Source: Anaerolineae bacterium (GTDB lineage Bacteria; Chloroflexota; Anaerolineae; Aggregatilineales; Phototrophicaceae). Taken from it: a stretch of 64,000 nucleotides of DNA. The position numbers and the translations under genes are program-made. The notes under the pieces are model-generated. The model was given only the letters and a program-made list of their open reading frames with translations. It did no database searches and had not been told where the DNA came from. How positions within the stretch are numbered: position 1 is the stretch's first letter; every line of letters starts with the position of its first letter. Location of the stretch: positions 1-64,000 of the forward strand of contig JAJDZQ010000158.1 of the NCBI GenBank assembly GCA_022824565.1, in the 5' to 3' direction. Of the stretch, positions 56,422 through 61,490 are shown piece after piece.

Positions 56422-56748
56422 TTAGACCAAAATCTCTATGTTGGCGTCGTTTATGCGCGCTTCGTACCAAGGCACATCAATCTCGGCGGGGCTGCGCGTG
56501 GCGGCTCCACTGCGAATGTCAAAGCGACCGCCATGCCTTGGGCATTCAATTTCGTAGCCGGCCAGTTTGCTGGGCTGGTCGGCTTGGTCAAAAGCGAGCG
56601 CATTGCCATCGTGCGTGCACAAGTCTTCGATGGCATAGATCTTGCCGCCGACATTGAATACGGCTATCCAACGATTGTCGACGCCGAATACCTCGCGTTG
56701 GCCCGGGGCAATCTCGCTTGCTGCGCAAAGTGTAATCCATTTCTTCAT
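56422..56748 (-). CDS. Rieske-type [2Fe-2S] ferredoxin
   Basis: 108 aa. Rieske domain with CTHDGNAL and CPRHGGRFDIRSG, giving the CxH and CxxH ligands. No membrane helix, so a soluble ferredoxin. Starts TGATG over the sufU stop. Rieske ferredoxins occur inside suf operons of several Gram-positive lineages, where they may act in electron supply to assembly. Confidence 0.9.
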   Translation of the reverse strand: MKKWITLCAASEIAPGQREVFGVDNRWIAVFNVGGKIYAIEDLCTHDGNALAFDQADQPSKLAGYEIECPRHGGRFDIRSGAATRSPAEIDVPWYEARINDANIEILV

Positions 56749-57152
56749 CAGCCGACCTCGGTCAACGCCCAATCTTCCCTGGCGGCCGGACCATGCGCGC
56801 CCACCACCAGCACCTTCAGCGGCAGCAAAGCGCACTTGACCCGGTTGATGCTCAAGGGCAAGCCAATCATGTCCAGCAGCAGCTGTTTGTCTATGCGCCG
56901 CGCCTCGTCCAGCGGCATACCCAGCAATTCCTCGCCAAACATGGAGGCGGCTGCCAGGCAGATCGCGCAGCCTTCGCCATCCCAGCCGACCGCCGTGATG
57001 CAACCCGACTCGTCCACCGTCAATGTCAGACGCAGCCGGTCGCCACATAGCGGGTTTGCTTCTTCGTGGTCGAAGTCGTTGGGCTGCAGCAGCCCCCAGT
57101 TGCGCTGGTTGCGGGCGTGGTCGAGGATGAGTTCGCGAGCCAGGTCGTTCAC
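56748..57152 (-). CDS. sufU: SufU-type Fe-S scaffold/sulfur transfer protein
   Basis: 134 aa. NifU N-terminal family with the three conserved Cys in NPLCGDR, EGCAICL and VKCALLPLKVL, plus the SufU-like Asp. In related bacteria SufU takes sulfur from SufS; no SufS is encoded here. 5 bp before it ends sufD; the stop overlaps the ferredoxin start. Confidence 0.92.
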   Translation of the reverse strand: MNDLARELILDHARNQRNWGLLQPNDFDHEEANPLCGDRLRLTLTVDESGCITAVGWDGEGCAICLAAASMFGEELLGMPLDEARRIDKQLLLDMIGLPLSINRVKCALLPLKVLVVGAHGPAAREDWALTEVG

Positions 57153-57157
57153 AGCGC

Positions 57158-58492
57158 TCAGCCGATGATTTTGGCTTCTATCTCATCCATCAGTCGTTGG
57201 CGAACGCGCTCGAAGGGCACGCGCTGCAGCAATTCGTCGAAGAAGCCCTCGATGATCATCAGTTGGGCTTGTGGACGGGTGATGCCGCGGCTCATCAGAT
57301 AATAGATGGGCTCAGCTTCCAATGTGCCAAAGGTGGCGGCATGCGAACAAGCCACATCATCGGCTTCAATCTCCAGGCCCGGGATGCTGTCCATGCGCGC
57401 GCTGTCGCTGAGCATCAGGTTGCGACAGACTTGATAACCATCGATGCGCTGCATCTGCGGCAGCGACTTGATCATGCCTTGCCACAGGGTGCGAGCCTGG
57501 TCGCGGGCTGCGCCTTTGAAAAGCAAATCGGTATTCGTCAGCGGCGCATTGTGATTCTGCTGCGTGTCCAGATCGAAGAATTGATCGTGATCGGCGAAGA
57601 AGAAACCGCTGACCCGGGCATTCGCGCCCGCGCCCACCGCATCCACCTCGATGAAGGCTTTGGTCAGGCGGCTGCCCATGACGCCATTCACCCAATCCAA
57701 CTGGGCATCGCGCCCAACTATGCCGCGCTGATGGCTGAATTCGAACGTTTCCCGATTCCAGTCTTGCAGCGAAACATAACGCAAATTGCCGGCGGCGCCG
57801 ACGATGAGCTCGGTCGCGCCGATATAGGCTGATTGACGCGCTTGGTCAGCCGATGCATATTCGACTTGCATGGTGGCCTGGGCATTTTCTTCCAGCACGA
57901 CCAGCACATGACCCAGCGCCGTGCCCGCTTTGGTATTGAAGCAGACCACATGCAGCGGCAGCTCGGCGCTGATGTTGCGCGGCACATGCACAAAGACGCC
58001 ATAATCCCATAGCGCCGCGTGCAATGCCGCGAACTTGCCATCGGTTGGCTGCACCGCCTGTGTCATCAGGTGCTGCCTGACCAAGGCTTCATGGTCGCTT
58101 ATCGCGCTGCGCAAGTCTGTGAAGACCACGCCTTGCCGCGCCAAATCGTCCGCCAGCTGATAATGCACCACCTGCCCATCGACAAAGACCAGCAAACCGC
58201 CTTGTTCAGCGCCAGTCAGCGGCTCGAGGTTTTTGGCGGGCACGGCAGTGGCTGTCGCGCCATTGGCGTCTATCATGCGCTCGGCTTCATCCCACCGTAT
58301 GTGTCGATAATCTGTGCGCCGCCACTCTTCTTCCAGGTAGGGCATGGGCGTCGATTCATACATCCGCCAGGCTTGCATGCGCCGATCGCGCAGCCAGGCC
58401 GGTTCCGCGTTGGCTTTGCTGAGCGCTGCGACCTGCTCGCGCGTGTAATTTGGCGCTTGTGGGGTGGACGAACGCCTGCGTACAACTGCCAC
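57158..58492 (-). CDS. sufD: Fe-S assembly protein SufD
   Basis: 444 aa from a GTG with AGGAGAACCATA upstream. SufBD core family: EVDAVGAGANARVSGFFFAD, DTQQNHNAPLTNTDLLFKGA and the C-terminal SHAATFGTLEAEPIYYLMSRGI. Forms the SufBC2D complex. 34 bp after sufB. Confidence 0.93.
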   Translation of the reverse strand: MAVVRRRSSTPQAPNYTREQVAALSKANAEPAWLRDRRMQAWRMYESTPMPYLEEEWRRTDYRHIRWDEAERMIDANGATATAVPAKNLEPLTGAEQGGLLVFVDGQVVHYQLADDLARQGVVFTDLRSAISDHEALVRQHLMTQAVQPTDGKFAALHAALWDYGVFVHVPRNISAELPLHVVCFNTKAGTALGHVLVVLEENAQATMQVEYASADQARQSAYIGATELIVGAAGNLRYVSLQDWNRETFEFSHQRGIVGRDAQLDWVNGVMGSRLTKAFIEVDAVGAGANARVSGFFFADHDQFFDLDTQQNHNAPLTNTDLLFKGAARDQARTLWQGMIKSLPQMQRIDGYQVCRNLMLSDSARMDSIPGLEIEADDVACSHAATFGTLEAEPIYYLMSRGITRPQAQLMIIEGFFDELLQRVPFERVRQRLMDEIEAKIIG

Positions 58493-58526: not shown

Positions 58527-59975
58527 CTAACCGATCGAGCCTTCCAGCTGGATCTGGATCAAGCGATTTAACTCCAGCGCGTATTCCATGGGCAACTCTT
58601 TGACGAGCGGCTCCAGGAAGCCATTGACGATCATGGCATTGGCTTCGTCTTCGCCCATACCGCGGCTCATCAGATAAAATAGCTGGTCTTCGCCGACCTT
58701 GCTGACAGATGCTTCGTGCCCCATGGTGACATCTTTGGCATCAATTTCGATGGTCGGGTAGGTATCAGAGCGGCTGAAATCGTCCAGCAGCAGGGCATCG
58801 CAAACGACATTGCTTTTGCTGCTGCTCGCGGCTTCATCAATTTTCAGCAACCCACGATAGCTGGCGCGTCCACCATCTTTGCTGATGGATTTGCTGATGA
58901 TTTGGCTGGTTGTGTTGGGCGCGAGGTGCGTGATCTTTGCGCCGGCATCTTGGTGCTGCCCATGGCCGGCAAAGGCGATCGAGAGCACTTCGCCATGCGC
59001 GCCTTCGCCACGCAAGACCACAGCCGGGTATTTCATGGTCAGGCGGCTGCCCAAATTGCCATCGACCCACTCCATGGTGGCGTCTTCTTCGGCGACAGCG
59101 CGCTTGGTGACCAGGTTGTAGACATTGTTCGACCAATTCTGAATGGTGGTGTAGCGACACCGTCCGCCCTTCTTGACGATGATTTCGACCACGGCGCTGT
59201 GCAAGCTGTCGCTGCTGTAGATGGGCGCGGTGCAGCCTTCGACATAGTGCACATAAGCGCCTTCGTCCACGATGATCAATGTGCGCTCAAATTGCCCCAT
59301 ATTCTGCGTATTGATGCGGAAGTAGGCTTGCAGCGGCATCTCGACCTGGACGCCAGGCGGGACATAAATGAAGCTGCCGCCAGACCACACCGCTGTATTC
59401 AACGCGGCAAACTTGTTGTCGTTGGAGGGGATGACCTTGCCAAAATACTCCTGGACGATGTCTGGATATTCGCGCAAGCCCGTATCCATATCCAGGAAGA
59501 TGACGCCCTGCTCCTCCAGATTTTCCTGGATTTTGTGGTAGACCGATTCGCTGTCGTACTGCGCGCTGACCCCATGCAGAAATTTTTGTTCCGCCTCGGG
59601 GATGCCCAGCTTGTCGAAGGTTTCCTTGATTTCGGCGGGAACTTCGTCCCAGTCCTGCTCGGTCTTGTCGGTGGCGCGGACATAATAATAGATGTCGTCA
59701 TAGTCGATCTGGTTGAGATCGCCACCCCATTGCGGCGTCGGCTTGTCCAAGAAGATATGGTAGGCCTCGACGCGCCGGTCGGTCATCCATTGCGGCTCGT
59801 CTTTCATCGCGCTGATTTGCCTGACGATCGTTTCGTTCACGCCTTTTTGGCTCTTGAAAGCGTAATCGACATCGTCATCATGGAAGCCGTATTTTTCGGC
59901 ATAGCTCAAGCCGACATTTTTGAGGGCTTCTTCTTCGTGCGTTAGCTGTTTCTCGCTCTGGACTACATCTATCAT
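58527..59975 (-). CDS. sufB: Fe-S assembly protein SufB
   Basis: 482 aa scaffold subunit. Family signatures: [54 protein letters not shown], and [18 protein letters not shown]. The start at 59975 ([10 protein letters not shown]) has CGGAGAGCGAC before it; the in-frame TTG at 59996 is less likely. Confidence 0.95.
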
Positions 59976-60000
59976 GTCGCTCTCCGTTGCAGGCAAGATG

Positions 60001-60216
60001 TCACTGCATTAGGTGGACTAGAAGCGCCGCCATTGCCAATTGCGTACTGAGCAAAAACCCGATGACGGCCAACTGCGTGGCGACCAAGCACTTGATTAGG
60101 CGCGTCTCCAGCTGGGCAAGGTCGGTTCTGGATGTCAAGTTTTCCTGCTGGGCCTCGACCGCTGTGAGTCGTCTGTCCAGCGCCAGCATGGCAGGGTTAT
60201 CCATGTTGGTTTCCAT
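60001..60216 (-). CDS. Small coiled-coil/membrane protein inside the suf operon
   Basis: 71 aa between sufC and sufB. About 1-40 is a predicted coiled coil ([31 protein letters not shown]), about 46-68 a membrane helix. Spaced 11 bp from sufC and 25 bp from sufB, so co-transcribed. No family recognised. Whether it tethers the Suf complex or is incidental is unknown. Confidence 0.6.
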
Positions 60217-60227
60217 CGACTCCTCTC

Positions 60228-61019
60228 TTAGGCAGGTGTCTGCTCAAGCGCGCCATGCTCCTCGCGGATCCACTCGTAGCCCTTTTCTTCGAGCGTCAGC
60301 GCCAGCTCGGGTCCGCCACTTTGCACGATGCGCCCGGCGAACATCACATGCACACGATCTGGCTTGATGTAATTGAGCATGCGTTGATAGTGGGTGATCA
60401 CCAGCGCGCCCATGTCGGGACCCGTCAGCGAGTTGACGCCATCGGCCACGATGCGCAGGGCGTCGATATCCAGCCCGGAGTCGGTTTCGTCCAGCACGGC
60501 GATGCGCGGCTCTAGCACAGCCATTTGCAAGACCTCGGCCCGTTTCTTTTCGCCGCCGCTGAAACCTTCGTTCAAATAGCGGCCGGCGAAGGCATGGTCG
60601 ATTTGCAGCTGCGACATCTTCTGGCGCATCATGCGGGCGAAGCGCGGGATGGGGATGCCTTTGCTTTCGGGGTCATCGGCTTTCATGCGAGCGTTGATGG
60701 CATGGCGCAAGAAATTGCCCAAGGTTACGCCGGGGATGGCCACAGGATATTGGAATGCCAAAAACAAGCCAGCCCGACTGCGTTCGTCCGGCTCCATCTC
60801 CAGCACATCTTCGCCATTCAACAGCACCTCGCCAGCAGTAACTTCGTAGGCAGGGTTGCCCATCAGCACATTCGCCAATGTGCTCTTGCCTGATCCGTTG
60901 GGACCCATCAACGCGTGGATCTCGCCCTGACGCACAAGCAGATTCACGCCACGCAGAATCGGGCTTTCGTCGCCATCCACGCAGGCATGCAAGTCGCGTA
61001 TCTCTAGTGTTACACCCAT
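60228..61019 (-). CDS. sufC: Fe-S assembly ATPase SufC
   Basis: 263 aa ABC-type ATPase of the SufBC2D complex. Walker A GPNGSGKST, signature FSGGEKKRAEVLQM, Walker B AVLDETDSGLDIDAL; QYPVAIPGVTL Q-loop. First gene of the operon; AGAGGAGAAC upstream. Preceded by a dyad and a TTGACA-17-TACACT promoter. Confidence 0.96.
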   Translation of the reverse strand: MGVTLEIRDLHACVDGDESPILRGVNLLVRQGEIHALMGPNGSGKSTLANVLMGNPAYEVTAGEVLLNGEDVLEMEPDERSRAGLFLAFQYPVAIPGVTLGNFLRHAINARMKADDPESKGIPIPRFARMMRQKMSQLQIDHAFAGRYLNEGFSGGEKKRAEVLQMAVLEPRIAVLDETDSGLDIDALRIVADGVNSLTGPDMGALVITHYQRMLNYIKPDRVHVMFAGRIVQSGGPELALTLEEKGYEWIREEHGALEQTPA

Positions 61020-61054
61020 TCGCGGCAGTTCTCCTCTCGCAAGGGGGGTTTAAT

Positions 61055-61081
61055 GTCGGTTAAATTGATTTTGTAACCGAC
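61055..61081 (-). promoter_or_regulatory. Candidate suf operator (dyad GTCGGTTA-N11-TAACCGAC)
   Basis: Perfect 8 bp inverted arms (61055-61062 and 61074-61081), 19 bp centre to centre. They lie about 15 bp downstream of the -10 of the suf promoter and 36 bp before sufC, a position where a bound repressor would block early elongation. Could equally be an RNA hairpin. The identity of a regulator (Rrf2/SufR-like or other) is not known. Confidence 0.6.
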
Positions 61082-61095
61082 CACAATTCTCATGC

Positions 61096-61124
61096 AGTGT
61101 AGCAGTGGATCTACAACTTGTCAA
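61096..61124 (-). promoter_or_regulatory. Promoter of the suf operon
   Basis: TTGACA (61119-61124) and TACACT (61096-61101) on the minus strand with a 17 bp spacer, a near-consensus housekeeping promoter, with transcription start expected around 61089. Confidence 0.75.
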
Positions 61125-61170
61125 TACAAGGGCGCGGGCAGTCCCAAGTTGCCTGACAGCCCGCGCTATG

Positions 61171-61381
61171 CCACCCACCCCAAACCCCTCCCCCAGAACG
61201 AACTGAGGATTGGACAGGTTTTTCTACCCTATCCCCGGCCCTTCTCCATATCCATAGGGAAGGAAGACTCGTCGAGCAACCTGTGCGATACTTGCTACTC
61301 TGCAAGAAATGATCATCAGATTTCATTTTCTCTGCATGCCCCCCTCCCTGATGCTTCGGGGAGGGGTGTGGGGTGGGGGTG
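61171..61381. repeat. Dispersed inverted-repeat element, copy 2 (full-length, MITE-like)
   Basis: In the 470 bp spacer between suf and opp. Ends are terminal inverted repeats: CACCCCAAACCCCTCCCC on the left (within 61171-61196) and, as reverse complement, CACCCCACACCCCTCCCC on the right (within 61357-61380), one mismatch in 18. Internal hairpin CCCTCCCTGATGCTTCGGGGAGGG (61342-61365). 61222-61380 matches the reverse complement of copy 1 at 2936-3096. No transposase and no coding potential, so a non-autonomous element or REP-like structure. The rest of the spacer holds the suf and opp promoters. Confidence 0.75.
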
Positions 61382-61428
61382 TAGCAGTGCAAATCTACAA
61401 AATTCGCTACTCCCAAAGTTTGCCTTGC

Positions 61429-61457
61429 TTGACGCAATTTTGTAAATTGTCTACAAT
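61429..61457 (+). promoter_or_regulatory. opp promoter with a palindrome in the spacer
   Basis: TTGACG (61429-61434), 17 bp, TACAAT (61452-61457). The spacer holds a perfect palindrome CAATTT-TGT-AAATTG (61435-61449), a likely repressor site. Because transcription starts near 61464, an in-frame ATG at 61458 is unlikely to be the oppD start. Confidence 0.7.
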
Positions 61458-61490
61458 ATGACAATATCAATAGGAAGAGTGTCTGCCCAG

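Follow-up and report, generated by a model that had tools for sequence, protein, structure and literature searches.

A conserved dyad-containing element in the suf leader of an Anaerolineae bacterium as a candidate operator of an iron- or Fe-S-sensing repressor

Introduction

SufR controls the suf genes in Synechocystis and in M. tuberculosis (PMC6034842), while in C. diphtheriae the control of suf has been predicted for DtxR (PMC524172). SloR, which is also a member of the DtxR family, binds sites with a 6-6-6 layout, such as the SRE1 site of mntH, TTTTAA-GCATAC-TTAACA (PMC12096823). Nothing about suf control in Chloroflexota was found in the literature searched.

The window analysed here, a stretch of 64,000 nucleotides from an Anaerolineae bacterium, contains a suf operon whose leader carries a dyad and, partly overlapping it, a core palindrome. 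The SufR systems place a repressor at the suf promoter, as is proposed for this locus, and genera that are sisters to the window's genus hold a SufR-like gene together with a putative AT-rich dyad; the window's genus, in contrast, is without both, and its dyad lies elsewhere and has another sequence. IscR, of the Rrf2 family, has a palindromic operator at a suf promoter, as the element described here would be, but no Rrf2 gene is over cut-off in the host genome. The SloR/MntR-type operators share with the core AT-rich hexamer arms, a 6-bp spacer and a place near the promoter, sometimes in tandem. They differ from it in that the main targets here would be suf and ferredoxin genes and not metal uptake, in that an extra GGTTA half-site makes a longer dyad here, and in that the present site is a predicted one. 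The actinobacterial control of suf by DtxR is alike in that an iron-dependent repressor family is proposed for suf and for Fe-S protein genes, whereas the phylum is different and the classic DtxR box, of 19 bp, has a half-site arrangement other than that of the suf core.

The host genome is 94.6% complete and falls within a family of uncultured Anaerolineae. SufC was detected in 85 of the 98 genomes of this family, and suf leaders were gathered from most of these. The genomes are mostly incomplete MAGs, so that absence of a gene means absence from the assembly, and the relatives in the comparison share ancestry and are not independent samples.

Results and Discussion

The suf promoter, the operon and the dyad

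The suf promoter on the minus strand is formed by TTGACA (61124-61119), a spacer of 17 nt and TACACT (61101-61096), which match the consensus at 10 of 12 positions, and it has an extended -10 region, as TG precedes TACACT (TTGACA-17-TGcTACACT). The first-pass annotation had described a perfect dyad between this promoter and sufC, and both the arrangement and the dyad itself were recovered: the plus strand at 61055-61081 reads GTCGGTTA-AATTGATTTTG-TAACCGAC, an exact pattern match with zero mismatches. The dyad occupies about +9 to +35 relative to the inferred start. The coordinates of these features are collected in Table 1.

Table 1. Features of the suf leader and operon in the window
Feature	Position	Strand	Remarks
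suf promoter, TTGACA-17-TACACT, extended -10 (TG)	61096..61124	-	start inferred near 61089; kept in relatives
Reported dyad, GTCGGTTA-N11-TAACCGAC	61055..61081	-	perfect form of the element, confined to the genus among the leaders compared; exact match, 32/32 genus leaders
Core palindrome, TTTAACCGACATTAAA	61049..61064	-	13/13 to TTTAACC-N3-RTTAAA; common to ferredoxin promoters in relatives
Probable ribosome-binding site, CGAGAGGAGA	61030..61039	-	read from the sequence
sufC	60228..61019	-	TIGR01978, E 2e-103; start 61019
71-aa ORF between sufC and sufB	60001..60216	-	hydrophobic C-terminus
sufB	58527..59996	-	TIGR01980, E 8e-220
sufD	57158..58492	-	TIGR01981, over cut-off
sufU-like gene	56748..57152	-	TIGR01994, E 3e-21, below its cut-off

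The operon is extended at 56422-57152 on the minus strand by the sufU-like gene and then by a Rieske-type ferredoxin, the latter assigned by reading. The 71-aa ORF has no Pfam match. A sufS gene is absent next to the suf operon of the window; in the relative L046 a sufS-like gene follows sufD. A divergent sufT is found near suf in 75 of the 80 loci of relatives, the remaining five stretches being short or cut, and in the family no regulator gene adjoining suf was recognised, the divergent neighbour being sufT. The window has no sufT anywhere and holds oppD/oppF-like transporter ATPase genes. Synteny with the closest relative, L035, ends at 61136, which is 12 bp upstream of the -35 region, and within the new flank (61125-61460) there is a repeat that shares about 80% identity with positions 3111-2938 of the window.

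The dyad alone is weak evidence, because perfect 8-bp dyads with spacers of 3-20 nt are common in the window (17 against approximately 26 expected) and the chance of finding one in an 80-nt leader of the local composition is about 1.2%. The exact pattern is the sole match in the window at up to 3 mismatches, and in the whole genome only the suf site matches it with 0 or 1 mismatch; among loose genome matches, the backward control pattern gives more than the real dyad pattern. It is the conservation of the dyad, and not the dyad itself, that marks it as functional.

Conservation in the genus and in the family

The alignment of suf upstream regions, which the first-pass annotation had proposed as a check, with loss of the dyad in close relatives as the refuting outcome, shows the dyad element in all close relatives examined, that is in 32 of 32 leaders of the window's genus. 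The 26 distinct versions of the genus leader align without a gap, and the spacer is 1 nt shorter in one further leader, L009. Leaders of other genera have a looser element, with the consensus TTTTnACCnnnGGGTACAnAnnAAATTTAACCnnCnTTAAA, so the perfect GTCGGTTA and TAACCGAC arms are, among the leaders compared, specific to the window's genus. Of the 34 genus genomes, 32 are matched at the suf leader by a genus model built from sequence only, the remaining two being those without detected sufC; the model finds one strong site per genome, at suf, and no second convincing one. The family model, R2, matches 84 of 98 family genomes at E<=0.5; elsewhere in the order, outside the family, it has a single weak match. 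Judged by these alignments and models, the element is kept throughout the genus and in most of the family. Spacing within the element hardly varies, but from the -10 region to TTAAC the distance ranges from 31 to 37 nt, as one would expect if the element bound a protein in its own right and was not a part of the promoter.

The symmetry of the column frequencies peaks at one and the same centre in genus leaders (reached by 0 of 300 column shuffles) and in non-genus leaders (p 0.03), so that this centre is not peculiar to the genus; nor is a GGKTA half-site, which other genera have as well. The best-conserved part of the element is the palindrome ATTTAA-CCGACA-TTAAAc, which overlaps only the right arm of the reported dyad. 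Read in a 6-6-6 layout, the arms of this core pair at 5 of 6 positions in the window and at 6 of 6 in the sister L006. At suf, all 32 genus leaders carry the core with a score of at least 12/13 (null 0), and 46 of 51 non-genus leaders carry it with at least 10/13 (null 8%).

The core at other iron genes

In most related genera the core also precedes a 4Fe-4S ferredoxin gene: 38 of 47 non-genus genomes have it there with a score of at least 11/13 (null 3%); inside the window's genus this holds for only 5 of 22. On these counts, the ferredoxin site is mostly lost in the window's genus and only the suf site is clearly kept. Since no second strong site is found there either, the host genome itself gives no sign of a broad iron regulon.

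Weak secondary R2 matches had been found before the 4Fe-4S ferredoxin (read in G005, G025 and G029) and before the divergent sufT (G004), and these sites have in common the right-hand part of the element, TTTAACC-N3-RTTAAA. The pattern AATTTAACNNNNRTTAAA, which was picked after the first ferredoxin matches had been seen, has 34 matches across the 98 genomes, and its reversed control has 3. Nineteen of the matches fall in suf leaders, five before ferredoxin, two before sufT, and one each before dps and a P1B metal ATPase; the other six, of which five were examined, are without an evident iron link, and one of the six is part of a CRISPR array. The wider count at ferredoxin is a more independent test, since the majority of its promoters were new to the analysis. 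By its core, the regulon would include ferredoxin widely, and sufT, dps and the P1B ATPase in one or two sister genomes each; in the host genome, suf alone is visible. Given this recurrence of the core at Fe-S and iron genes, the operator is most readily understood as a site at which a trans-acting factor linked to such genes would bind.

Several non-genus ferredoxin promoters (among them L284, L294, L273 and L280) share CCAACAAAAGTTCCAGA and then GGTTA downstream of the core. Weak R2 matches at ribokinase, at malic enzyme and inside ORFs were read as chance. The weak R2 match before a siderophore-binding protein in L282 has half of the core, TTAACCGCAG, and is not counted as a core site because the second arm is missing. 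When both strands were scored, G095 was the sole genome without both the suf element and the ferredoxin site (G042 is not a low scorer), and this co-loss, being a single case, is too thin to use.

A composite operator and its candidate regulator

The element is probably a composite operator for a trans-acting repressor that senses iron or Fe-S, and the DtxR family appears the most plausible source of that repressor. The dyad would be part of an operator that covers about 40 bp near the 5' end of the suf transcript, where a dimeric repressor would bind the core and a second GGTTA half-site, and contact with this half-site would account for the longer dyad. With sufficient iron, the bound repressor would keep RNA polymerase from leaving the promoter (blocked promoter clearance), and it would let go when iron or Fe-S is short. 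We infer the mode of repression, the dependence on iron or Fe-S and the DtxR-family identity alike.

The first-pass annotation had proposed the dyad as a strong candidate for the site of an iron or Fe-S sensor and had named Rrf2/SufR-like regulators as candidates. The sensor is a good reading, given the operator-like place and geometry of the element, its retention upstream of suf and the presence of its core at ferredoxin and other iron or metal genes; the regulators named are not supported, and the core overlaps only one arm of the dyad.

DtxR-family proteins are nearly universal in the family: PF02742 is found in 97 of 98 genomes and has three matches in the host genome. Two of these three proteins were read fully, and both consist of Fe_dep_repress, Fe_dep_repr_C and FeoA, that is of DNA-binding, metal/dimerisation and FeoA domains. 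The core is an inverted repeat in a 6-6-6 layout near a promoter, as in operators of the SloR/MntR type. This layout, the near-universal genes and the prediction for C. diphtheriae make a DtxR-family metalloregulator the leading candidate, which is put forward with some reserve. The core was found at none of the promoters of DtxR-family genes looked at in the genus; genes of this family need not be self-regulated.

The same operator might, as a real possibility, serve a repressor of another family, such as Fur, CRP/FNR or an unrecognised one. Read as TTTAA-N6-TTAAA, in a 5-6-5 layout, the core fits the half-site geometry of CRP/FNR, the link to DtxR consists of similarity of layout and presence of the genes, and the DtxR genes examined in the genus are without the core. 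DtxR is, however, the only one of the families compared (DtxR, Rrf2 and SufR) that occurs in nearly all genomes of the family.

It is unlikely that the leader holds two overlapping sites, in which the core would serve a family-wide regulator and the perfect GTCGGTTA dyad would be a second operator, born in the genus, for another protein. The perfect arms are indeed genus-specific, and the SufR-like gene was lost in the same genus, but the GGKTA half-site and the symmetry centre are found in other genera too, and the genome has no other copy of the dyad.

SufR, Rrf2 and a possible RNA hairpin

Regulators of the SufR and Rrf2 (IscR-type) families control suf in other bacteria (PMC6034842; PMC11475020), and SufR-like genes exist in sister genera, yet the reported site very improbably belongs to either of them: the host genome and 33 of 34 genus genomes yielded no detected member of either family, and the site is intact in them all the same. 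For Rrf2 (PF02082), no protein is over cut-off in the host genome and one of the 34 genus genomes has one that is; the two weak PF02082 matches followed up in the host genome are DtxR-family proteins. The SufR-like profile A3 has no match in the host genome (G000) or in 32 other genus genomes, and the best TIGR02702 match in the host genome has an E of 0.13.

SufR-like genes are divergent to suf in other Anaerolineae; most sister genera have them at a genomic position away from suf. Also in most sister genera (L142, L146 and L149, for example), an AT-rich dyad, GTCAATTTTTATAAT..ATCATAAATATTGAC, is found upstream of the suf -35 region or overlapping it. Its mean score is 19.3 in genomes with a SufR-like gene against 10.5 in those without, and no genome in which it scores 10 or less has such a gene; the p of 8e-10 for this association treats the genomes as independent, which they are not. 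Several genomes retain the AT-rich dyad without a detected SufR-like gene. Within the genus, G063 alone has a SufR-like gene, and it alone retains an AT-rich half-dyad; the extra genes of G063 need care because the genome is unusually large (8.5 Mb) and has 6% contamination. By presence and score, SufR-like genes track the AT-rich upstream dyad, which the window's genus appears to have lost, and not the reported dyad, which persists in genomes without SufR-like or Rrf2 genes. As both regulators are undetected, an iron-sensing repressor other than SufR and Rrf2/IscR is probably in control of suf here.

A cis-acting RNA hairpin, in which the 8-bp stem would govern mRNA stability or translation, is just as improbable: the stem does lie within the inferred 5' UTR, the leader is more stably folded than its shuffled versions (z -2.6) and G-U pairs occur at three stem positions. 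Compensatory changes, however, show no excess over shuffles in the genus or outside it and so lend an RNA stem no support. In 42 of 45 non-genus sequences one stem pair fails, while position and spacing stay fixed, the core recurs in trans at ferredoxin, and an Rfam search of the leader returned nothing meaningful.

Implications

The comparison yields a testable candidate operator and a candidate regulon of suf, ferredoxin and perhaps sufT, dps and metal export, and it argues against the two default regulators, SufR and Rrf2/IscR. It also offers a clean natural contrast: some relatives possess the AT-rich dyad as well as a SufR-like gene, and the window's genus has lost both and still has the reported site. 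A possible, though rather unlikely, history would be that the genus lost a SufR-like repressor together with its AT-rich operator and that suf may now be under a metal sensor of DtxR or another type, acting through the operator downstream of the start. If true, the control of suf in this genus would have been swapped from sensing of Fe-S clusters to sensing of metal.
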